DNA from: a virus
Reading direction: 5' to 3' (one strand)
Length of the DNA stretch: 64,000 nucleotides
IMG/VR virus record: IMGVR_UViG_3300042898_003434
Location: 1 to 64,000 of that record
Shown here: piece by piece, positions 2,299 through 50,394 of the stretch
Layout of the letters: each line of letters opens with the position of its first letter
How positions within the stretch are numbered: position 1 is the stretch's first letter
Program-made: the position numbers and the translations under genes
The notes under the pieces: generated by a model
What the model saw: the letters and a program-made list of their open reading frames with translations, nothing else
Databases searched by the model: none
Told to the model about the DNA's origin: nothing

Positions 2299-2616
2299 TT
2301 ATTTTTTATTCAAGAAATCTTCTGGTTTCTTAGCAAACTTCTTTGAAAGAAGTGTTAAACCTTGAAGGATTTCTGGACTTATCACACCAGTTATGCCATA
2401 ACTGATTGCTTTTGTCAAGCTACTTACTTCAACTTGTTCTAAAATAAACCATGCTATTGTTGAACATATCGCAGCAGCGATGATTCGTTTGATTTGTTCG
2501 GTGCAAGTACGTTTTACACCATCCATGAAAGTTCTTGCCAACATGCCCAGTGCCCCAAGTAGAGCAACAATCCATCCGCCTCTTAAGAACTCCATGAGTA
2601 TATCTTTATCTTCCAT
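2299..2616 (-). CDS. Putative holin (LydA/phage holin family 3-like)
   Basis: 105 aa with three hydrophobic stretches (about residues 12-28, 45-62 and 66-85) and a charged Lys-rich C-terminus. The N-terminal pattern, a Gly-Gly-Trp followed by a small-residue helix and Ala-Arg, recalls LydA-type holins, which form inner-membrane lesions that release endolysin. No endolysin gene is next to it, so the function rests on topology and resemblance alone. It lies between tRNA-Gly(TCC) and tRNA-Lys with its own TATTTATA box 18 nt upstream. Confidence 0.6.
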   Translation of the reverse strand: MEDKDILMEFLRGGWIVALLGALGMLARTFMDGVKRTCTEQIKRIIAAAICSTIAWFILEQVEVSSLTKAISYGITGVISPEILQGLTLLSKKFAKKPEDFLNKK

Positions 2617-3393: not shown

Positions 3394-5469
3394 TTATTTG
3401 GAAGTTGCTCTAAAAACGCCGTCCCAATCTGGGGGAAGATTACTCTTTCTAAGCTCTCCGATTCTTTCTATCATCATCTCATAATAGTGTATAAGTTCTT
3501 TATTATGTTTCATTAACACTTCTGCTGTGCTAATTGCTTTATCCCAATTTTGCATTCTGTATTGATTCAAAAACTCGGAATGTACCGAAAAAACTGCACT
3601 TGGGAAGGGCATTCCTTGGTTTTCAAGTACGGTATAAATTTTCACGCCTTCTTTTTTACCTTTGACGGCAATCCAATCTAACTCAGTTATATTCGTAATT
3701 TTTACACCGTTTTGTTCTTTTTTGTATTTTTCTACAGTATTTTCTCCCAAAATAATCAACACGCCGTATGTTTTAGTTTGGCCTTCTAGTCGCGACGCAA
3801 GATTCACCGCGTCTCCAAGTATATCATAACTAAACCGCTCTTTCGATCCCATATTTCCAACAACAACCTCTCCGGTATTTATTCCTATACCAATTGAAAG
3901 AGTTGGAATTCCTTTTGCTTTCAATTCCGCGTTGAGTTGAGTTAATGCAATATTCATTTCACGCGCAGTTTTTATTGCAAGTGTTGCTTGATCTTCGACA
4001 TGAATTGGTGCCGACCACCACGCCATCACGGCGTCTCCGATAAGTTTTCCAACGGTACCTTCATTTTTCATTACTATGGGCAACATAGCATCCATATAAA
4101 GATTGATGAGCGACGTTAATCCTTGCACGTCTTTTCCAAAATGTTCAGATAACGCGGTATACCCTCTTATATCGGAAAATAATATAGTTAATTCTTTAGA
4201 TTCCCCTCCCAATTGTAATAAATTTGGATTCTTCTGCAACTTTTCCACCATTGCTGGGGCGAGATATGTACCGAACTGCTTCTTGATTTGCATCTTAAGT
4301 TTATATTCCATCACAAATCTCATGAATATTGCTCCTACCCACGGTAAAAACAAAGCAAGTGTTGGCCAAGTATAATCCAATAAGTAACCATGTTTGTTGA
4401 AAACATAAAATCCAACTGCGGTTGGTACGCACAACAGCGCAGTTACCAATACTCCGTTGTAAACATATCCGAGATATGCAGCGGCTAAAATTAAAAGTAT
4501 TCCAAAGGTTGCACCAACGATTAGTTCATACAAATCAAACTCGGCTTTTCTTTCCAGTCTGTTTCCATCTACCAACATCTGCAAAGTTTGCATACTAACT
4601 TCATATCCTTGAGATATTCCAACCGGCGTTGCTACTGTGTTCGCCAATCCTTCAGCCGTTAATGCCATCACAACAATCTTCCCACTTGCTTTAGACCAAT
4701 CTGCGTCGGTGTATGAAATACTCTCAAATTTGTATTTAAAATTGACCCACACTCTGCCGTTTGCATCGGTGTTTATCGGCGGTGTACCTTTTACTCGAAC
4801 CGCTTGTATTCCGGCGTCATTTATTTTCGCTTGATAGCTGGGTTCTCCACCAAAGACTCGTAGAATTTCTAACGGCAGGGTTGGATATGTTTCTTTTTTA
4901 ACTTGTATAATTAAAGGTAATCGTCTCACCACCCCATCCAGTTCCGGCGCTGTTAATAACATGCCCACACCGGCAGACGACTCTCCGATTTCTTTAACTG
5001 GACCGATTGCATTCGGATAATCATATAACCAACCGTCAGATTGACCTCCAACACTTGCTAGTCCTCTTGGAACAGGAACTCCTTTGCCTTTTACAGATGC
5101 AGATTGCGACGTGATAACAGGAACTTTTTGCAGAATGTCGATGAATTCTGGGTCTCCGCCCATTCTATCTTTTTCAGCGAAAATAATAGGAAGAACGACA
5201 AGCGCAGCCTCGTTTTCAAATGCTTTCTTTATACCGTCGGCCAACTCTGTTCTTGGCCATGGCCATTGACCTTTTTCTTCCAAACTTTTCTCGTCTATTT
5301 CAATTACAACCACATTTTCACTTTTAACTTTTGGTTGTGATCGTTGATAATAATCCAACCCTTTCAATCGTATTACTTCTATTGGGTATGGATCTACTAT
5401 TCGCAATGTTATTATAGAAACCAATATAATTGCGCCCACGGCAAATAATTTTAATAGATAAGATTTCAT
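3394..5469 (-). CDS. Membrane-bound class III adenylate cyclase with CHASE2 sensor
   Basis: 691 aa. An N-terminal membrane segment (5-22) leads into an extracytoplasmic CHASE2 sensor domain (about 30-310), then three membrane segments (312-333, 336-356, 364-387) and a cytoplasmic class III cyclase domain (about 425-620). The catalytic set is complete: metal-binding D433 and D479, adenine-selecting K475 and D549, and N556/R560 for the transition state, so it should make cAMP from ATP. The start overlaps the FecR gene stop as ATGA, implying translational coupling. In bacteria CHASE2 cyclases commonly neighbour FecR-domain proteins. Finding one in a phage operon is exceptional; raising host cAMP in response to an envelope signal is the inferred role. 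Confidence 0.93.
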   Translation of the reverse strand: MKSYLLKLFAVGAIILVSIITLRIVDPYPIEVIRLKGLDYYQRSQPKVKSENVVVIEIDEKSLEEKGQWPWPRTELADGIKKAFENEAALVVLPIIFAEKDRMGGDPEFIDILQKVPVITSQSASVKGKGVPVPRGLASVGGQSDGWLYDYPNAIGPVKEIGESSAGVGMLLTAPELDGVVRRLPLIIQVKKETYPTLPLEILRVFGGEPSYQAKINDAGIQAVRVKGTPPINTDANGRVWVNFKYKFESISYTDADWSKASGKIVVMALTAEGLANTVATPVGISQGYEVSMQTLQMLVDGNRLERKAEFDLYELIVGATFGILLILAAAYLGYVYNGVLVTALLCVPTAVGFYVFNKHGYLLDYTWPTLALFLPWVGAIFMRFVMEYKLKMQIKKQFGTYLAPAMVEKLQKNPNLLQLGGESKELTILFSDIRGYTALSEHFGKDVQGLTSLINLYMDAMLPIVMKNEGTVGKLIGDAVMAWWSAPIHVEDQATLAIKTAREMNIALTQLNAELKAKGIPTLSIGIGINTGEVVVGNMGSKERFSYDILGDAVNLASRLEGQTKTYGVLIILGENTVEKYKKEQNGVKITNITELDWIAVKGKKEGVKIYTVLENQGMPFPSAVFSVHSEFLNQYRMQNWDKAISTAEVLMKHNKELIHYYEMMIERIGELRKSNLPPDWDGVFRATSK

Positions 5470-6683
5470 CTTTGAGTAATGTTTACTTTCAGTTTTGATC
5501 CGAAATTCAATAGATAATCTTCAGTACCATTTTGATCCGTTACAGAGAATGTAGCATTTGTATCCACCTTTACTTTATAAAAAATCGTACCTTTTCCAGT
5601 GCTTATATTTAAAATCGCACTTATGCCGTCCGTAGTAAATCCGCCGTTTGTAATAACAGTTCCCATGGTGATCGCTCGGGTGGCCGCAGTTTGTAGTGCA
5701 GTAGGTATAGATTGTTTCAACAATGCATCTATAATCGCAATACCGGTTTCAGGTTGTAGTTTACTGATATCAAGAGTAACGGACGCCAATTCAACCGACA
5801 ATGAACTTGAAGCTTCTTCCGTTTGAACTTCCGCCACCGATGCTTCTTCGGATGACGTGCTGCTTTCTGAAGAATTTTCCACCTGTGCTACAGATGTCGA
5901 CTGGTTTGATACGGCAGTTGAATTACCTTTTGCATCTACTTTAGCAGATGCCGATTTTTTATTTGATGATCCGTCGTCTTCTTTACTTACTTGTACGGGG
6001 GCTTTTTTAGCTTCTTTTGCTGCCTGTGTTACCGATTTTGGCGTATCTAGTATCAACATATTGTTAACTTTTGTTTCGTCGTCGAAATTAAGAAGTACCG
6101 GTGCAGACGGTACTACATTTGACGATGCGACTAATGTGGCCTGATATGCTTTTGTTAACACCACCGTCCCAAGCCCGTTTGTAACTTGTATACTTCCCAC
6201 GACCGGTGGGCCATATTGCGCAAGTGATGGTAGTAGAATTATCAAACTTCTACCAAGCTCGTCTACGGTCAAGGAAAAGTCGGTCCCACGCACGGCCACC
6301 GACGCCGTAGGGGTGTTGATTTTTACTTCGTCTCTATTATTTTTTGCTATAAGTCCGGACGCGTATCTAATCGTTCCGAGTGAGGCTTTCAACCCCAATT
6401 TACCTTTGCCACTCGCTGGATCATATACAAACGTATCTATAACCAATTTACTGAATTCGGTGCATTGAACTCTGGTGCCGTCTACGAACGTAATACCTAC
6501 ACGAGATCTTAAAGTCTCGATAGTATCTTCCATTTCTATTTCGACATCAAGTTTACCGTCAATTTTATCGTAGTCTCTTGTCACTTGAGTAGGACCAGTC
6601 ACCTCGGTAATTTTACCGGCAGCACCGAATAAGTTGGAGCAAAATAATACCCCAACTAATATCAGTATAACTTTTTGAACCAT
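5466..6683 (-). CDS. Secreted FecR-domain protein
   Basis: 405 aa. A signal peptide (about 1-20) precedes a FecR domain (about 40-185) with the diagnostic tract INTPTASVAVRGTDFSLTVD. A Ser/Ala/Glu/Lys-rich linker (about 225-300) follows, then a small C-terminal domain. FecR proteins are periplasmic; in bacteria the same fold beside CHASE2 cyclases is thought to act as the signalling partner. It overlaps the cyclase gene by 4 nt downstream and starts 3 nt after the curlin-like gene, so it belongs to the same operon. Likely role: link the secreted fibre or envelope state to cyclase activity (inference). Confidence 0.88.
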   Translation of the reverse strand: MVQKVILILVGVLFCSNLFGAAGKITEVTGPTQVTRDYDKIDGKLDVEIEMEDTIETLRSRVGITFVDGTRVQCTEFSKLVIDTFVYDPASGKGKLGLKASLGTIRYASGLIAKNNRDEVKINTPTASVAVRGTDFSLTVDELGRSLIILLPSLAQYGPPVVGSIQVTNGLGTVVLTKAYQATLVASSNVVPSAPVLLNFDDETKVNNMLILDTPKSVTQAAKEAKKAPVQVSKEDDGSSNKKSASAKVDAKGNSTAVSNQSTSVAQVENSSESSTSSEEASVAEVQTEEASSSLSVELASVTLDISKLQPETGIAIIDALLKQSIPTALQTAATRAITMGTVITNGGFTTDGISAILNISTGKGTIFYKVKVDTNATFSVTDQNGTEDYLLNFGSKLKVNITQR

Positions 6684-6686
6684 TCC

Positions 6687-7487
6687 TTATGGATTTGGCG
6701 GAGCGATACTAGTAGTAGGATCGGCTGGACCCGTTGGGCCAGTTGTTCCGCCAGTTGTCATCACAGGAGCAGCGCCGCTTGTAGTTTGCACTATGCGAAC
6801 CGTGTTTCCACTTCCTACCAAACTATATTGGAATGTTTGTTTTTCTACACCCGACTGGTATACCGTTAGATCGTTTGTGCTTCCTTGGATGGTGACTTTC
6901 TGTTCGTGACCATCTTTAGCAGCAACTCCACCCGTTGATCCGATTTGAGTTGATTTGACAGTATTGGAATTACCAGTGATACTATAATCAATGTAGTTAT
7001 AGTCGGCATCTTTGATACCAAACTTCAATACATTAGAGTTACCAGTAACATCTAATATTACGTCAGAGTTAGCCATAGTCGCTTTGCTCTCATCGGTATT
7101 AGATGTATGATCAACGGTCGTGTCTTTGTTAAACAACACACTATTACTGTCACCGGTCAAAGCAATGTTCATGTTATTGCTTGCTCCATTCAAATAGTAT
7201 TTTTGTATATTACTGTTACCTGTTGCGACCGATAATAGTTTCAAGTTGTCCGCTCCGGTAATAGAGAAGTCCGTGGTATTATTATTGCCCATCTGCCGCA
7301 TTTCAAATAAGATGTTATCTCCCGTTATGTCCGAGGGTGTTCCACTGGAGACCCCAATTTTATTGAGACTTCCGACTTGTATCAACGTTGTGCTTCCAGC
7401 GGTGGTTATTTGATTTACGTATATTTGATTTTGACCGTATGCGGTCAATCCAAAGAATATAAACATTAGTGTTAGTATTTTTTTCAT
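6687..7487 (-). CDS. Secreted curlin-like repeat protein (putative amyloid subunit)
   Basis: 266 aa. A signal peptide ends near residue 18 (FFGLTAYGQ). The body is a run of short beta-strand/turn repeats marked by G-x-x-N at residues 67, 78, 90, 101, 112, 149, 172, 202 and 225, the spacing and composition expected of curlin-type (CsgA/CsgB-like) subunits or related beta-solenoids. The last 30 residues are collagen-like, rich in Thr-Gly-Pro. It lies 11 nt after the csgG-like gene, where the secreted substrate of a curli channel would be expected. Individual repeats diverge from CsgA (few Gln), so amyloid formation is inferred, not shown. Confidence 0.75.
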   Translation of the reverse strand: MKKILTLMFIFFGLTAYGQNQIYVNQITTAGSTTLIQVGSLNKIGVSSGTPSDITGDNILFEMRQMGNNNTTDFSITGADNLKLLSVATGNSNIQKYYLNGASNNMNIALTGDSNSVLFNKDTTVDHTSNTDESKATMANSDVILDVTGNSNVLKFGIKDADYNYIDYSITGNSNTVKSTQIGSTGGVAAKDGHEQKVTIQGSTNDLTVYQSGVEKQTFQYSLVGSGNTVRIVQTTSGAAPVMTTGGTTGPTGPADPTTSIAPPNP

Positions 7488-7498
7488 TTTATTTATTT

Positions 7499-8290
7499 TT
7501 AAGGGTTGAATCTCCAGAGCTTCATCTTTTCACCTTGTTGTATTATATCAATAACCGCTTTGTCTATGGCGCTTCTAACCGCAATGGTGTTTGGCTCGTT
7601 TGCGGTTAAACCCAATTCCGATTCTATAGGCAACGTTCCATGCTCATAGAATCTGAATAGATTACCTGACACTGCTACACTGGAAATTGTTTTTGTTACG
7701 GCGGTACTAAGTAACACTTCCCCCGTTTGAACACTTACAAATCTTAAAGATACGGTCACAACATCTTTTCTATACTGTGCGCTGGACGATATACCGAGCA
7801 CACTTGCCCCCGCGCCACCTGTCAGGATGTTAGAATCATATCCAATGATCCCGCCTTCAGCTATTATACCGGCAAATAGCATAGGCGTGAGTTTTTCTGC
7901 ATTCCTACCTTGAAAAGTTTCCCGTGTCTGACTAATCAACTGCCTTTCTTTTATTATATTATCCAGATTTGCTCGCTCTAACACTTGAAACCACGATCCT
8001 CCACCGGCGGTTCGCAATGAATCAATCAACCAGCTTTCTGCTCCTTGTGTTACTGCCGACGAAAATGATGCATAATTATCAATGATTTTTCTTTGACCGG
8101 TTTTATCTGTATACGAGTACACAGCAATTGTTATCTTTGGTCCATCAGGCGACGGCAATGCCATCAATTCTTTTTCCAACGGAGAATGTTGACTCCTTGG
8201 TACATCCAGTATACTGGGCGTTTTTGTTACAGAAGCACAGCCGCCAAACAATAAAGATAATAATATAACCGTGATAGCATATATTTTCAT
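7499..8290 (-). CDS. csgG: CsgG-like outer-membrane curli secretion channel
   Basis: 263 aa lipoprotein. The chosen ATG gives a clean lipoprotein signal (LLSLLFGGCAS, lipidated Cys18) and overlaps the csgF-like stop as ATGA; a longer upstream frame would bury the signal. The mature part follows CsgG order: KITIAVYSYTDKTGQRK near the N-terminus, WFQVLERANLDNIIKERQLI, then a Gly-rich segment GGIIGYDSNILTGGAGA in the pore-forming region and VVTVSLRFVSVQTGEVL. CsgG forms a nonameric outer-membrane channel that exports curlin subunits. The partner CsgF-like gene is directly upstream and a curlin-like gene downstream. Confidence 0.93.
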   Translation of the reverse strand: MKIYAITVILLSLLFGGCASVTKTPSILDVPRSQHSPLEKELMALPSPDGPKITIAVYSYTDKTGQRKIIDNYASFSSAVTQGAESWLIDSLRTAGGGSWFQVLERANLDNIIKERQLISQTRETFQGRNAEKLTPMLFAGIIAEGGIIGYDSNILTGGAGASVLGISSSAQYRKDVVTVSLRFVSVQTGEVLLSTAVTKTISSVAVSGNLFRFYEHGTLPIESELGLTANEPNTIAVRSAIDKAVIDIIQQGEKMKLWRFNP

Positions 8291-8754
8291 CCCTGTGGTA
8301 TAGGTGATAATGAACCGACTGGGACGGTTATTTGAGTTGTTCTTCCGCTTGCAGGATCTACGATATATAACGTAGCAAACTCGCCATTTCTCTGCCAAGT
8401 AACTGTGGATCCGCCCTGTAAGTTAATTACACCAAACGTTGCGCCAGAAGAATTGAATATCTGGTCTGTTACTTGCGATGCTAGTTGCGAGTATATTCTA
8501 GCTTGAAGATTGTTTATAAACGTGTTTAGGGGGGTGTTTGACTCTTGTATCTTAGTTTGTTCGGCTTCCGACTTGATAGTTTCTTTTATTGCTTGTTTTC
8601 GAGTTCTTGCTAAGTTTTCGACTGTCATCGCAGTATTTGAAAAATTAGCACCATTAAACGACGAAGATTTAAAAGAATATACCATGTCGCTGCCGTATAC
8701 AACTACGGTGCAAAGTGATATCAGTAAGAATGATATGTATTTTTTAATGTGCAT
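8287..8754 (-). CDS. csgF: CsgF-like curli assembly factor
   Basis: 155 aa with a signal peptide (about 1-21). The mature N-terminus MVYSFKSSSFNGANFSN parallels the CsgF N-terminus that inserts in the CsgG pore (aromatic strand, then N-P/G-N-rich segment). The middle LNTFINNLQARIYSQLASQV and the C-terminal LYIVDPASGRTTQITV match the CsgF helix and final strands. First gene of the five-gene operon, preceded by a TATTTATC box 5 nt before the ATG and by the terminator of the gene upstream. CsgF connects the channel to the nucleating fibre on the cell surface. No csgE or csgB homologue is visible in the window. Confidence 0.9.
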   Translation of the reverse strand: MHIKKYISFLLISLCTVVVYGSDMVYSFKSSSFNGANFSNTAMTVENLARTRKQAIKETIKSEAEQTKIQESNTPLNTFINNLQARIYSQLASQVTDQIFNSSGATFGVINLQGGSTVTWQRNGEFATLYIVDPASGRTTQITVPVGSLSPIPQG

Positions 8755-8759
8755 TTTAA

Positions 8760-8767
8760 AGATAAAT
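8760..8767 (-). promoter_or_regulatory. TATTTATC box, candidate promoter of the curli operon
   Basis: The coding strand reads ATATTTATCTTTAAAATG, placing the box 5 nt before the csgF-like start codon. No TTGACA element is seen. If this is a late promoter the operon would be expressed late and nearly leaderless. Confidence 0.45.
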
Positions 8768-8812
8768 ATCGTATATATTAGCCAGAATCACAAATTATTC
8801 ATACTTAAATAT

Positions 8813-11285: not shown

Positions 11286-12031
11286 CTAGATTTTTTAGGA
11301 ACTTGCGCGTCTGGTACTATGTTTGGTACTTCAGGTGCAGGTTTTAAATCATTTGAAGAATATTTCCAAATATACCAAGTAACTGCTTGAATTGCTTGGA
11401 CGGGTACGTTGAGCTTGGTCGAAGCTTCTTGATAGGCATTTATCATTTCAATTCTCTCTTCTTTAGAGGGGGTTTTTAACCCTTTTAAGGGTAATTTTTC
11501 GCCTCTCCATATGTTTATGGCATGCCCATCTAACACCATCCGTGTTTCAACAGATTTCGGGTCCAATAAAGATTGAAAAAACACTTCAACTTTTGGCCCC
11601 GTTACTAAACTGGTGTCTCCAGTTAGTTTAATAAAATTTGCTTTGAATGCATTTTTTGGATATGCATTCACTCGTCGCGCATTGCTCATTATCCTCTCTG
11701 CCGCCATATAATTGTCTTTCCAGTTATTTCCGGGCGATAAAACCGCGACAATCGCCGCCATAACTTCAAATGGGGTTTCCGAGGTTACAAATCCTTGCAA
11801 TTCGCCAATGTATTTTTCAGTTAATTCTTCTACATCTTTTTTTGCATGATGATACCATTTTCCCCAATAGTCTTTTTCCTCGGGTGTAGCAGCATTGTAT
11901 ACATTTATTATATTATCGACCCCTTTTCCAAGTTTTACAAGAGTTGAAATTCCGACAGGGTCTTTTCTCTTTGGTTCAACCAATACTTCATCTATATACT
12001 CCGTCAGCAAGGACTTTAAAGATATATGCAT
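11282..12031 (-). CDS. Conserved phage protein with head-targeting-like leader
   Basis: 249 aa. The N-terminus MHISLKSLLTEYIDEVLVE belongs to the window's leader family, with LTE and IDE as candidate protease sites. The body resembles an all-helical, DNA-glycosylase-like phage family of unknown function (tracts VLSPGNNWKDN, VTGPKVEVFF, MVLDGHAINIW), but I cannot name an activity. Sits between two terminators and shares leader type with the 13062-14216 protein. Confidence 0.65.
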   Translation of the reverse strand: MHISLKSLLTEYIDEVLVEPKRKDPVGISTLVKLGKGVDNIINVYNAATPEEKDYWGKWYHHAKKDVEELTEKYIGELQGFVTSETPFEVMAAIVAVLSPGNNWKDNYMAAERIMSNARRVNAYPKNAFKANFIKLTGDTSLVTGPKVEVFFQSLLDPKSVETRMVLDGHAINIWRGEKLPLKGLKTPSKEERIEMINAYQEASTKLNVPVQAIQAVTWYIWKYSSNDLKPAPEVPNIVPDAQVPKKSS

Positions 12032-12054
12032 ATTCTATAAGTATATATAAAAAC

Positions 12055-12085
12055 AAAAAAGCCCACCTTTCGGCGGGCTTTTTTG
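12055..12085 (-). terminator. Intrinsic terminator after the 12086-12973 gene
   Basis: GCCCGCC GAAA GGTGGGC stem with T-runs on both sides, directly at the end of the minus-strand gene at 12086. Confidence 0.9.
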
Positions 12086-12973
12086 TTATCCATTCCAACC
12101 TTTTGGCGGAGTGCAATAATTTCCAAATGCTTTTGGCATAACTGGCTCTTTTGCTATCTTGGGCGTGTTTTGTAAATCTACGCCCATTTCAATGAGTGCT
12201 TCTTTACTAGCATAATACACACTTATTTCTACAAGCATGTCGCCTTTTTCAAAGCTTACTCTTGTAACTTTATCTTCAAGCTTACTTCCCCAACCAGTAC
12301 CAGTATCAAACTGTTTATGACTTAATGGTGTGCTTGTGTCGGAACTAACATTCATTGAACGTAAAATTCCAGATGGCGCATTCAGACTTGTGTTCGATGC
12401 TAGAGTGGTGTTAAAATAATTAGAACAATTATTTGCAGCGGTTATTGTTCCATTCGTAGTTGTTACATTGCCAACCGTGTATGTACACGGCGCGGAAGTT
12501 GTGTATGTGAGTGGAACAGACGTTGTGTATGTGGGTGGGACCAAAGTTGTATATGGCACACGCGAATCTAGTACCCACCCAGAATAATACGGAACTTTTT
12601 CTTTGAATGTTCGCAATCCAATAACTCCTGCATTGGCGGCATTACCCTTGGTTTGCTGCACATAGCTATTACCTTTGCTTGTGAATATAAACGAGGCAGA
12701 GTTATCATCGCTGATTCTATAGCCTTTTACATCCAAGCTGCTATAAGCATCTATAATGTATCCAGTGTTGGTTTCTTCTGCCGGTTTTCCAGTTACAACG
12801 TCCAATCCATCAACCGACAATACAGCCATTACTCTGTATGGATTATCGTTCTTTATTTTAACGGTATAATTAGTACCGGAGCGAGCTTCGATGAAGCTCA
12901 TACCCTTGTGGGTATATTCTTTGCAAGCACGACCATTTACTTGGACGTGCATACTTACGTTATGCATATTCAT
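12086..12973 (-). CDS. Hypothetical protein with short Thr/Pro/Tyr repeats
   Basis: 295 aa. The N-terminal 110 residues form a beta-rich domain (VMAVLSVDGLDVVTGKP, a tract seen in a conserved but uncharacterised family). Three to four repeats of YTTxVPxTYTTS follow at about 140-166, then an Asn/Thr/Ser-rich linker and a second beta-rich domain ending in a Cys-Pro-Pro-Lys tail. A structural or surface role is possible. It has a TTGACA promoter with a 50-nt leader containing a CCGC/GCGG hairpin (13001-13013), unlike the leaderless genes nearby. Confidence 0.65.
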   Translation of the reverse strand: MNMHNVSMHVQVNGRACKEYTHKGMSFIEARSGTNYTVKIKNDNPYRVMAVLSVDGLDVVTGKPAEETNTGYIIDAYSSLDVKGYRISDDNSASFIFTSKGNSYVQQTKGNAANAGVIGLRTFKEKVPYYSGWVLDSRVPYTTLVPPTYTTSVPLTYTTSAPCTYTVGNVTTTNGTITAANNCSNYFNTTLASNTSLNAPSGILRSMNVSSDTSTPLSHKQFDTGTGWGSKLEDKVTRVSFEKGDMLVEISVYYASKEALIEMGVDLQNTPKIAKEPVMPKAFGNYCTPPKGWNG

Positions 12974-13026
12974 ATTTTTAACCTTTTGTTAGATGTCTAG
13001 CCGCACAATGCGGACTTCGGGTTATA

Positions 13027-13054
13027 ACTATAGATTAAAAAATGTTTTTGTCAA
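13027..13054 (-). promoter_or_regulatory. Sigma70-type promoter of the 12086-12973 gene
   Basis: TTGACA, 16-nt spacer, TATAGT. The start codon is about 50 nt downstream, and the leader includes the hairpin CCGCATTGTGCGG. Confidence 0.65.
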
Positions 13055-13061
13055 TATATAA

Positions 13062-14216
13062 TTAATGTTTCAACAAAAATACGTGTTTAACGTCTTTTCT
13101 TTGAGCTGGTCTATCACTGTCGCCACCGGGAAGTATGATGCAACTATATTTTCTTTCGTCATCTTCTTTTGAAGGCATTTCGTCTGTATATTTTATTGTA
13201 TCAATATTCAAATCCTTGAACTCAGGATCGTTCTTGTATGCATCAAATACTGCTTGTCTTAATCCCTCCTTTGCTTCGGGAGTAATTTTTGTTTTTCCCG
13301 ACACTGGGTCTTTTTCAAATCCTCTACCTTTAGTTGATGTTAAAAATTTCCTGAATACTGGCGATGGTACGATGACCGACTTTTTCTTAGCGTCTTTAAC
13401 TTGATCGGTACCACCCAACGAGTATGTAACTTCAATTCCCATTTGTTGACCAAGTTCAACGAATTTGCCCATCTTGGTATAGAAGTATGATTTTATTGGG
13501 AATCCCGCTTCTAGTAATTGGCGTGTAACTGCCATCGCGGATTGGAAATATCTATCACTGAAAAAATCTCCAGCGTCATTCCAACGTATTTCTAGAATCT
13601 TGTTGTCCCATTTTGCGTCTTGAGCAAGGCGTCTAGCTTCACGGAATGCTTGTTCGATATATTCAGATGGTTTCTCCAATATCAACTGAAGACGTTGTGC
13701 AAGTTTTAGGTTCTTACCATCATTCATGATATAAAAACCCTGAAGAGCATAGCAATCAACCGCACAACTACCAGCCGATGGACATGTATTTATAATTTTA
13801 AAATCGCGAGCTTCTGGATCCCAAATAATTCCTCTCAACGCGGGTATTCCGGTGTTGATCGTCATTGTGTTTTTATCTCCAGTATGCAGAGATTTTTCAC
13901 CAACGTCAAAAATTGTTTTCGGTGGCGTTGATAGTATTCTTATAAATTGATCAATCTTTACTTCCCTTGTTCCACTTTCGTCTTTTACAACCAACCCTCT
14001 AACCGTGGTACCTGTAAGTCTCGGCATATTTTTTGCAGCTTTGCCACCGGATTCATATCTATCCAACTCGGAACTTAACCAATCTTTAACAGCTTGTACA
14101 GACATGCAACGAGTCTTATTCTCTGGCGCTGATGGGTCTACATCTTTTAAATCGGTAGACTTCCAATCAATTTCGTTCATTGACTCGGCCAAAATGGATT
14201 TTAACTTAATATGCAT
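13062..14216 (-). CDS. Gp88-like protein with head-targeting-like leader
   Basis: 384 aa. The leader MHIKLKSILAESMNEI carries an LAE site. The body contains a cluster NTCPSAGSCAVDCYALQGFY (about 143-161) followed by an RWNDAGDFFSDRYF segment, the pattern of the actinophage 'gene product 88' family, whose Cys-rich start looks like a metal or iron-sulfur site; its activity is not known to me. TATATATACTTATA lies just upstream, as it does for the gene at 11282. Carrying a head-targeting leader would make this a packaged protein. Confidence 0.65.
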   Translation of the reverse strand: MHIKLKSILAESMNEIDWKSTDLKDVDPSAPENKTRCMSVQAVKDWLSSELDRYESGGKAAKNMPRLTGTTVRGLVVKDESGTREVKIDQFIRILSTPPKTIFDVGEKSLHTGDKNTMTINTGIPALRGIIWDPEARDFKIINTCPSAGSCAVDCYALQGFYIMNDGKNLKLAQRLQLILEKPSEYIEQAFREARRLAQDAKWDNKILEIRWNDAGDFFSDRYFQSAMAVTRQLLEAGFPIKSYFYTKMGKFVELGQQMGIEVTYSLGGTDQVKDAKKKSVIVPSPVFRKFLTSTKGRGFEKDPVSGKTKITPEAKEGLRQAVFDAYKNDPEFKDLNIDTIKYTDEMPSKEDDERKYSCIILPGGDSDRPAQRKDVKHVFLLKH

Positions 14217-49309: not shown

Positions 49310-49450
49310 TTATTTACTATTTTTATTTTCGGTCAAGTTTTTCTTTCTACCAAGCTTTGGTATAAGTACCGATGCTATCAACGAAACTACCGCCGAAACG
49401 CCTATAATCCACATAGGAACGCTGACGGCGGTGCATGAATTGTCTACCAC
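49310..49450 (-). CDS. Possible small single-span membrane protein
   Basis: 46 aa from GTG (34 aa from an internal ATG at 49414). One hydrophobic span (about 17-36: VPMWIIGVSAVVSLIASVLI) followed by a basic KLGRKK stretch, an inside-positive tail. The GTG overlaps the end of the spanin-like lipoprotein gene. It fills the otherwise empty 200 bases here. Short and unsupported by an RBS, so uncertain; a lysis accessory (e.g. holin or antiholin-like) is conceivable. Confidence 0.35.
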   Translation of the reverse strand: MVDNSCTAVSVPMWIIGVSAVVSLIASVLIPKLGRKKNLTENKNSK

Positions 49451-50394
49451 GACGCAGACGGCGTGGCTGGTCGTTTTAGTATATCACACTTACCCGTCCT
49501 AGGGTTAACTATAACCATTGCAATTATAATAACTCCCATTGATACTGCTACTATCCAGAACGGTACCATCACTGCTATATAAGCCATCCCTAGAGTAAAA
49601 ACCCCAGCAATAATAAAAGTGGGACTCTTTAAAAGTAAACCACCCACTAATTGTAGTATACCCACAATTGCTAAGGCTTTTACTATCCAGCGTAGCATTT
49701 CCATACGTTGTTCTTCTTTAGCTGAAGCAATCTTAGCTTCGGTTTCTTTTTGAATGCGTTCTATTTCAACTTGTCTTGCAGCTTCTAAACGTTGTATTGT
49801 GACTTTGTTTTCTTCTCTCAACTTACGTTTTTCTTCTTCTTTTTCTTCGATTAATCTAGTTGCGCTTTCGTAAGCAGCCGCAGCAAGCAAACCTTCTCTA
49901 ACTTTTTCTTCATATTTTTTAAGTAACTCTTCAACAGCTTTTTTTCTATCTAAGTCGACTTCTGCTCTTATATTAAGTCTTGTATCTTCGGGCAGTTGAT
50001 CCAAACGAGCCATATTTTCTTTAGCTCGTAAATGAGCAATAAGAAAGTCTAAATCTGTATCTTTTTTATTATTATCTGTAACGTAATAGATACCATAGTT
50101 AACTTTGCTTATTTCGGCAAAGTTTGCAAAGTCCACTTGTTCTCTCTTTTTATATGTTTCTTCTAACTCTTTGCGGAATTCGTCATACTCTTGCTCCATC
50201 TTAAGTTTAGCTTCTTGTAATTTTTTATCTGAATCGGCTATTTGACCCAAAGCTTCATTGGTTGCTTGACCCCCAACAATTGCTTTGTCTGGAGTACTTC
50301 CCAAACTTTTCCATGCCTCAGGCATTTTTAGACCTGGTATTATAGAACAACCGGTTAAGAATACCAATATAAATATTAGTGCATATACTCGCAT
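49444..50394 (-). CDS. Lipoprotein with coiled coil and C-terminal membrane spans, possibly a u-spanin
   Basis: 316 aa. Lipobox FILVFLTGCSII (Cys16), then a long charged coiled coil (about 50-240, KKREQ..., EEKEEEKRKLREE), then two to three hydrophobic spans (about 240-300) and a short tail. Lipid anchor in the outer membrane at one end and membrane spans at the other is the arrangement of unimolecular spanins (T1 gp11), which fuse the two membranes at lysis. It is longer than known u-spanins and has more than one span, so a tail or envelope role is also possible. Confidence 0.55.
   Translation of the reverse strand: MRVYALIFILVFLTGCSIIPGLKMPEAWKSLGSTPDKAIVGGQATNEALGQIADSDKKLQEAKLKMEQEYDEFRKELEETYKKREQVDFANFAEISKVNYGIYYVTDNNKKDTDLDFLIAHLRAKENMARLDQLPEDTRLNIRAEVDLDRKKAVEELLKKYEEKVREGLLAAAAYESATRLIEEKEEEKRKLREENKVTIQRLEAARQVEIERIQKETEAKIASAKEEQRMEMLRWIVKALAIVGILQLVGGLLLKSPTFIIAGVFTLGMAYIAVMVPFWIVAVSMGVIIIAMVIVNPRTGKCDILKRPATPSASW

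Follow-up and report, generated by a model that had tools for sequence, protein, structure and literature searches.

A predicted curli-type (type VIII) secretion cassette with FecR and CHASE2 adenylate cyclase genes in a T4-like phage

The window analyzed in this study, positions 1 to 64,000 of the 90,628-bp IMG/VR record IMGVR_UViG_3300042898_003434, carries at 3394-8754 on the minus strand a cassette of five genes related to the curli (type VIII) secretion machinery. The genes are, in the order of transcription, csgF (8287-8754), csgG (7499-8290), a curlin-like repeat gene (6687-7487), fecR (5466-6683), and a gene for a class III adenylate cyclase with a CHASE2 domain (3394-5469). The csgF/csgG and fecR/cyclase pairs overlap by an ATGA (8287-8290 and 5466-5469, respectively), and the repeat gene is separated by 11 nt from csgG and by 3 nt from fecR. 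The operon is bracketed by two intrinsic terminators on the same strand, both hairpins with T tails. The one at 8846-8815, with a 14-bp stem, belongs to the upstream gene and separates it from the operon, and the other, at 3133-3110, lies at the 3' end of the operon. The five-gene operon between two terminators proposed in the original prediction was thus recovered with all its frames, starts, stops, overlaps, and gaps, and the identification of all five genes was upheld.

In a hidden Markov model search with Pfam matches judged against the curated cut-offs, four of the five proteins, CsgF and CsgG among them, score above these: CsgF (PF10614, 3.2e-14), CsgG (PF03783, 4.1e-49), FecR (PF04773, 1.1e-7), and the cyclase (CHASE2, PF05226, 6.4e-39; Guanylate_cyc, PF00211, 1.5e-19). 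The csgG product is a predicted outer-membrane lipoprotein, the curli export channel, with an invariant Cys18, and the profile of its family matches structures of E. coli CsgG (3x2r, E 1.6e-65). CsgF consists of a signal peptide and the CsgF domain, and its N-terminus carries a conserved F[KR]S..F.G segment, whose position corresponds to that of the stretch by which E. coli CsgF binds to CsgG.

The product of the third gene has a signal peptide, as originally noted, and ten GxxN motifs rather than the nine first counted; residue shuffles average 2.4 motifs, and none of 20,000 reaches ten. It has no match in Pfam, the curlin families included. The profile of its family matches a single convincing solved structure, the 'Curlin associated repeat-containing protein' (PDB 8c50, E 5.6e-5), and its AlphaFold model (predicted local distance difference test, pLDDT, 78; predicted template modeling score 0.74) is a solenoid of stacked beta strands, mostly of 7-11 residues. 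The conserved residues and the selection on this gene (see below) support its assignment as a curlin-like export substrate. Judged by its sequence, the locus encodes the channel CsgG, CsgF, and a curlin-repeat substrate of a type VIII system, with no detectable CsgE gate.

The FecR protein, predicted to be periplasmic, has a single N-terminal hydrophobic (signal) segment and no cytoplasmic part. Its model, with the FecR core predicted well and a modest confidence overall (pLDDT 67), matches the periplasmic cell-surface signaling domain of PupR (6ovk; Foldseek, E 4.8e-4). A role as an anti-sigma regulator was rejected, since the protein has no cytoplasmic anti-sigma domain and there is no sigma factor gene among the five genes of the operon. 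A reading of its C-terminus, with an invariant terminal [VI]x[VI]xQ, as a curlin-like strand was not supported: the profile score against the repeat protein (15.4) falls within the column-permuted controls (maximum 19.2).

The predicted inner-membrane cyclase matches solved bacterial adenylate cyclases. The metal-binding D433 and D479, the adenine-selecting K475 and D553, and the transition-state R560 are kept in all 21 sequences compared, and N556 in 18 of them, which supports a catalytically intact class III adenylate cyclase. It also matches PycC models of the Pycsar systems (8.3e-26), via the shared catalytic domain. CHASE2 cyclases of S. meliloti raise cyclic AMP (cAMP) on sensing a protein via an outer-membrane beta-barrel (PMC13001267), and in Burkholderia a FecR gene and a gene for a CHASE2 kinase are part of one biofilm operon (PMC5192318). 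Based on the architecture and these two precedents, we suggest that FecR and the cyclase could form a periplasm-to-cAMP sensing arm. As a separate observation, in the relative G004 a homing-endonuclease-like open reading frame (DUF723, T5orf172; L024 11623-12410, the same region being L177 1203-2006) splits the cyclase gene past the catalytic domain, with the remaining, C-terminal portion encoded beyond the insert.

A TATTTAT box at 8762-8768 on the minus strand, 8-14 nt before csgF, is a candidate phage late promoter. The same box precedes several structural genes of the phage, and TATTTATA is present in 11 of 41 upstream regions versus 1.1 expected, structural genes among them. Three replication-region genes carry TTGACA in place of the TATTTAT-type box. 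This pattern suggests that the curli operon may be expressed late.

One scan yielded 158 viral contigs encoding a CsgG relative, of which 80 were kept. A search for the same gene order in phage data, advised in the original prediction, recovered it in about 65 viral loci with all five gene types, some of them cut at a contig edge, and about 20-25 of these are distinct at 85% identity. The records of two cultured phages, HTVC008M and Melnitz, also have this order. A second curlin gene between fecR and the cyclase gene is found in some marine loci only. The five genes are strictly co-inherited, and all of them are under purifying selection: the ratio of nonsynonymous to synonymous substitution rates (omega) is 0.05-0.16 for csgF, csgG, the repeat gene, and fecR in close pairs (synonymous divergence, dS, < 1), and 0.06-0.12 for the cyclase gene at dS > 1, where it is less reliable.

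The upstream flank of the window cassette is common to L007, whose CsgG is 100% identical, L009-L011, L017, and L019, and the downstream holin gene is common to L008 and L012-L020, so that L017 and L019 have both flanks. Because independent metagenome contigs join the cassette to the window's own flanking genes, the concern that the operon lies on a misassembled bacterial contig could be answered without read coverage. Several relatives from the window lineage encode a glycine-zipper lipoprotein immediately 3' of the cyclase gene (L020 8091-8534, L025 11749-12216), which is absent there in the window. Another predicted lipoprotein, encoded at 49444-50394 of the window, has homologues (37-49%) about 2-4 kb upstream of the cassette, on the opposite strand, in a different lineage (L030, L035, L040, L067, and others).

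The cassette occurs in at least three different genomic neighborhoods. In G005 and G006, CsgG is 73-77% identical to that of the window and the DNA polymerases only 32-33%, whereas G004 has 80% for CsgG and 76% for the polymerase. This is most simply read as transfer of the complete cassette between phage lineages, with polymerase identities of just 30-33%. A CsgG tree unites all cassette carriers in a single clade (support 99/96), and the window copy belongs to a phage-only clade of 16 (99/94). Two Caulobacteraceae contigs from metagenome-assembled genomes (MAGs), L091 and L092, branch inside the wider cassette group. They look chromosomal; the neighbors of L091, which lies in a 2.6-Mb MAG, are of bacterial type (HbpS-like, Vgb-lyase, TetR, and a calcineurin-like phosphoesterase, a putative cAMP phosphodiesterase). 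Since these contigs carry the same module, fecR and the cyclase gene are not phage additions. Cyclase matches at E 1e-120 or better were found in 5 of 249 sampled Caulobacteraceae genomes, and beyond L091 and L092 no curli genes were seen beside the cyclase gene in the short stretches fetched from the matching genomes. Several genome contigs with the cassette (FZLS 'Water_Bin34', a Pelagibacter MAG; L089) seem to be phage sequences that were binned into MAGs, and we did not use them as cellular evidence. A csgG-containing Salmonella phage record, OR851715, is a 1.5-kb unverified contig and most likely host DNA.

The record contains the T4-like genes for PolB, DnaB-type helicase, UvsX, clamp loader, SSB, RIIA/RIIB, RNA ligase, and tail sheath, in agreement with the original assignment to T4-like phages. 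Since G004, a 297-kb relative, has a DNA polymerase 76% identical to that of the window phage, the record probably represents part of a jumbo phage genome, and the phage would belong to a T4-like lineage of jumbo size. By helicase and polymerase, the closest named phages are an uncultured 484-kb phage and Microcystis phage Mel-JY01 (42%), joined for the helicase by Flavobacterium phage immuto. Most related contigs come from lake-type sources, as read from IMG numbers rather than metadata, which suggests a freshwater habitat. No Shine-Dalgarno signal was found (9 of 75 versus a background of 9.7%), and the value for the window lineage, 0.10, compares with 0.00 in Flavobacteria, 0.15 in Caulobacteraceae, 0.40 in marine cassette phages, and 0.63 in Shewanella. 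It is compatible with a Bacteroidota host and also with other hosts of low Shine-Dalgarno usage; hence no host was assigned from translation signals. Bacteroidota-type TAnnTTTG promoters are not enriched. Among other features, seven tRNA genes (ARAGORN) and an eighth at 71-172 (Rfam) lie at 71-2772 of the window, with an endonuclease-like gene and the holin gene in between, and a series of paralogous genes for proteins of about 350 residues starting with M[SA]L.P/Q.[LV][EQ]WR[KR]LP, which look like repeats of a structural or tail gene, occupies 64501-73427 of G000 (L005).

A search for cAMP receivers revealed, in relatives of the window phage, a protein of 215-218 residues with a cyclic nucleotide monophosphate (cNMP)-binding domain (PF00027, 1e-16 to 3e-18). 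Its phosphate-binding cassette, GEGALV..xPRNA, is intact, it has one or two short hydrophobic C-terminal segments, and no DNA-binding domain was found in it; the protein is probably membrane-attached. The gene occurs together with the cyclase gene in six contigs of the window lineage (G004, G260, G269, G274, G276, and G278), 13-15 kb past it in the three that were measured (G004, G260, and G269). No such gene was found within about 13.8 kb past the cyclase gene in G265, a borderline reach. In six further contigs with the protein and without the cyclase, the contig edge falls before the expected cassette site, as judged from the match position. In another lineage (L196, L197), the gene is immediately adjacent to csgF and divergently transcribed. 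Among 50,697 phage records the protein has one distant match only, and no cNMP-binding protein was found in other cassette phages, including HTVC008M and Melnitz. It matches PycTIR/PycC models at 2e-12 to 1e-7 and has no TIR domain, and in the window lineage the two genes do not form one locus. Weak PF00027 matches in G260 (a second one) and G265 were disregarded; the open frame is cupin-like by eye. In L177, a gene between the cassette and the cNMP-binding gene (11680-13653) encodes a 657-residue protein with a two-partner secretion (TPS), filamentous-haemagglutinin-like domain (E 3.7e-14), a second candidate exported surface protein.

The cNMP-binding partner lends some support to the idea, put forward in the original prediction, that the phage rewires host cAMP. 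The other roles considered there, an altered surface, a block of superinfection, or help with release, are putative. A complete phage-owned relay, in which FecR and the CHASE2 cyclase would sense the state of export or of the envelope and the cNMP-binding membrane protein of close relatives would translate cAMP into an event at the membrane, for instance lysis, growth arrest, or phage exclusion, is a tentative extension that we find rather doubtful. If true, a phage would possess a second-messenger circuit of its own, linked to a pore for amyloid export.

In HTVC008M and Melnitz, as in many other lineages, both freshwater and marine, csgF is directly preceded by two tandem genes for proteins of about 95-118 residues with one hydrophobic stretch each (phrog_18771), annotated as hypothetical. 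They are located at 6900-7462 in HTVC008M (KC465899), at 5927-6583 in L003, at 5927-6540 in L030, and in others. No kinase domain was found in these proteins, which are perhaps the upstream 'histidine kinases' published for phage curli modules (PMC9599517), and the Melnitz copy has a weak holin likeness. No such pair was seen in the window lineage, which has instead a holin-like gene downstream of the operon (2299-2616, minus strand; phrog_6384 holin, 1.4e-7), a separate transcription unit.

Taken together, these data make it probable that the cassette functions in curli export and has a periplasm-to-cAMP signaling arm; it may serve to remodel the surface of the infected cell. We base this on the profile matches, the curlin structural match, the approximately 65 loci, the low omega values, the catalytic residues kept in 21 of 21 cyclases, the likeness of FecR to PupR, the precedents, the cNMP-binding partner, and the TPS protein. 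The cassette was probably acquired from alphaproteobacterium-like bacteria and exchanged among phages. During infection, probably late, the repeat protein would be exported through a pore that CsgG and CsgF form in the outer membrane of the host, and would assemble into fibers on the infected cell. The periplasmic FecR and the inner-membrane cyclase would monitor the periplasm or the export process and signal its condition as cAMP, which may be read by the cNMP-binding protein in the window lineage and by host regulators. The likely benefit, at a guess, is a remodeled surface, providing aggregation with, or shielding from, other cells or phages.

Several observations count against such an exporter. 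CsgE (PF10627) was not found in the record (G000), four relatives, or both Caulobacteraceae genomes, with a positive E. coli control; we do not treat it as essential for a phage-type system, because it is also absent from the type VIII secretion system (T8SS) of pelagiphages (PMC9599517). A Foldseek search with the model of the repeat protein gave no solved structure in the PDB at E 0.001 or better. The record of the window stops 3.4 kb past the cyclase gene and does not contain the cNMP-binding gene, so that for this phage the gene is a prediction only. Finally, Melnitz-infected cultures showed no clumping (PMC9004378). The main rival is a device for lysis or its timing, in which the CsgG/CsgF pore, acting with holin-like proteins, would breach the outer membrane, cAMP would be the clock, and the curlin a plug or leftover. 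Such a role was proposed for Melnitz (PMC9004378), and it would accommodate the one-helix phrog_18771 pair before csgF in many lineages, an exported SLT-type transglycosylase gene 3' of some cassettes in another lineage (L030 12165-12623), and the holin gene just downstream of the window cassette. However, that holin gene is in a separate unit beyond the terminator, the phrog_18771 pair is missing from the window lineage, and a leftover curlin is improbable because in close pairs purifying selection acts on the repeat protein no less strongly than on csgG. We consider a lysis function unlikely.

Less likely still is an open pore through which nutrients or signal molecules would enter past the outer membrane, their uptake being regulated by FecR and the cyclase. 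The undetected CsgE gate would fit this idea, which was suggested earlier (PMC7029224, PMC9599517), but the conserved curlin-like substrate and CsgF would have no explanation. Passive cargo or a misassembled bacterial contig, to which the similar cassettes in the Caulobacteraceae MAG contigs might point, is strongly disfavored, as the same genes and flanks recur in independent metagenomes, the genes are under purifying selection, and the window copy of CsgG is surrounded by phage sequences.

The cassette of this phage has published relatives. Genes csgF and csgG were reported in pelagimyophages in 2020 (PMC7029224), a curli operon in the Methylophilales phage Melnitz in 2022 (PMC9004378), and a csgF-csgG-csgA/B-fecR-(csgA/B)-cyclase module in pelagiphages (SAR11) in 2022 (PMC9599517). 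The original prediction knew of no complete set that includes both substrate and cyclase, a statement overtaken by the latter study and by the HTVC008M and Melnitz records. By sequence, the window locus is of this published kind, with the pelagiphage-type order csgF-csgG-curlin-fecR-(curlin)-cyclase. The order is common to the window and the pelagiphage T8SS (PMC9599517; HTVC008M, KC465899, and the podovirus HTVC023P type), and the HTVC008M proteins are 45.6% (CsgG) and 40.1% (cyclase) identical to those of the window. Unlike the pelagiphages, the window has one curlin gene rather than two and no phrog_18771 pair, both being optional in the published set; it comes probably from freshwater and from a different T4-like lineage, whose close members have the cNMP-binding protein, not found in HTVC008M. 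Melnitz (MZ577097) has the same five gene types in the same order (CsgG 47.9% identical), but also a second curlin and the upstream pair, and its host is OM43. The T4-like virus TARA_ERS488589_N000003, with a predicted Bacteroidetes host, shares the presence of curli genes, three in number; the description available to us (PMC7198788, 2020) does not name FecR or a cyclase.

Among cellular systems, the Caulobacteraceae cassettes L091 and L092 (CANGCO010000005 and CANGEH010000001), with CsgG 48-49% identical, differ from the window by two curlin genes before fecR (csgF-csgG-curlin-curlin-fecR-cyclase) and, for L091, by the bacterial-type neighbors. The E. coli curli system (csgBAC/csgDEFG) shares CsgG and CsgF homologues and a GxxN-repeat substrate, whereas the window cassette has FecR and the CHASE2 cyclase and no detected CsgE. 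New here are the T4-like lineage, apparently from freshwater and probably of jumbo size, whose cassette has a single curlin gene, the evidence of cassette transfer between phages, the cellular counterpart, the upstream small-protein pair, and the cAMP-binding partner. Phage curli, so far described from marine phages of SAR11 and OM43, would thus also occur in T4-like phages that are common in freshwater and probably jumbo-sized. The cassette seems to pass between distant phages as one unit, and its Caulobacteraceae counterpart already includes fecR and the cyclase gene. With the cNMP-binding protein as a concrete candidate receiver of cAMP, the role of phage curli becomes testable with defined parts.

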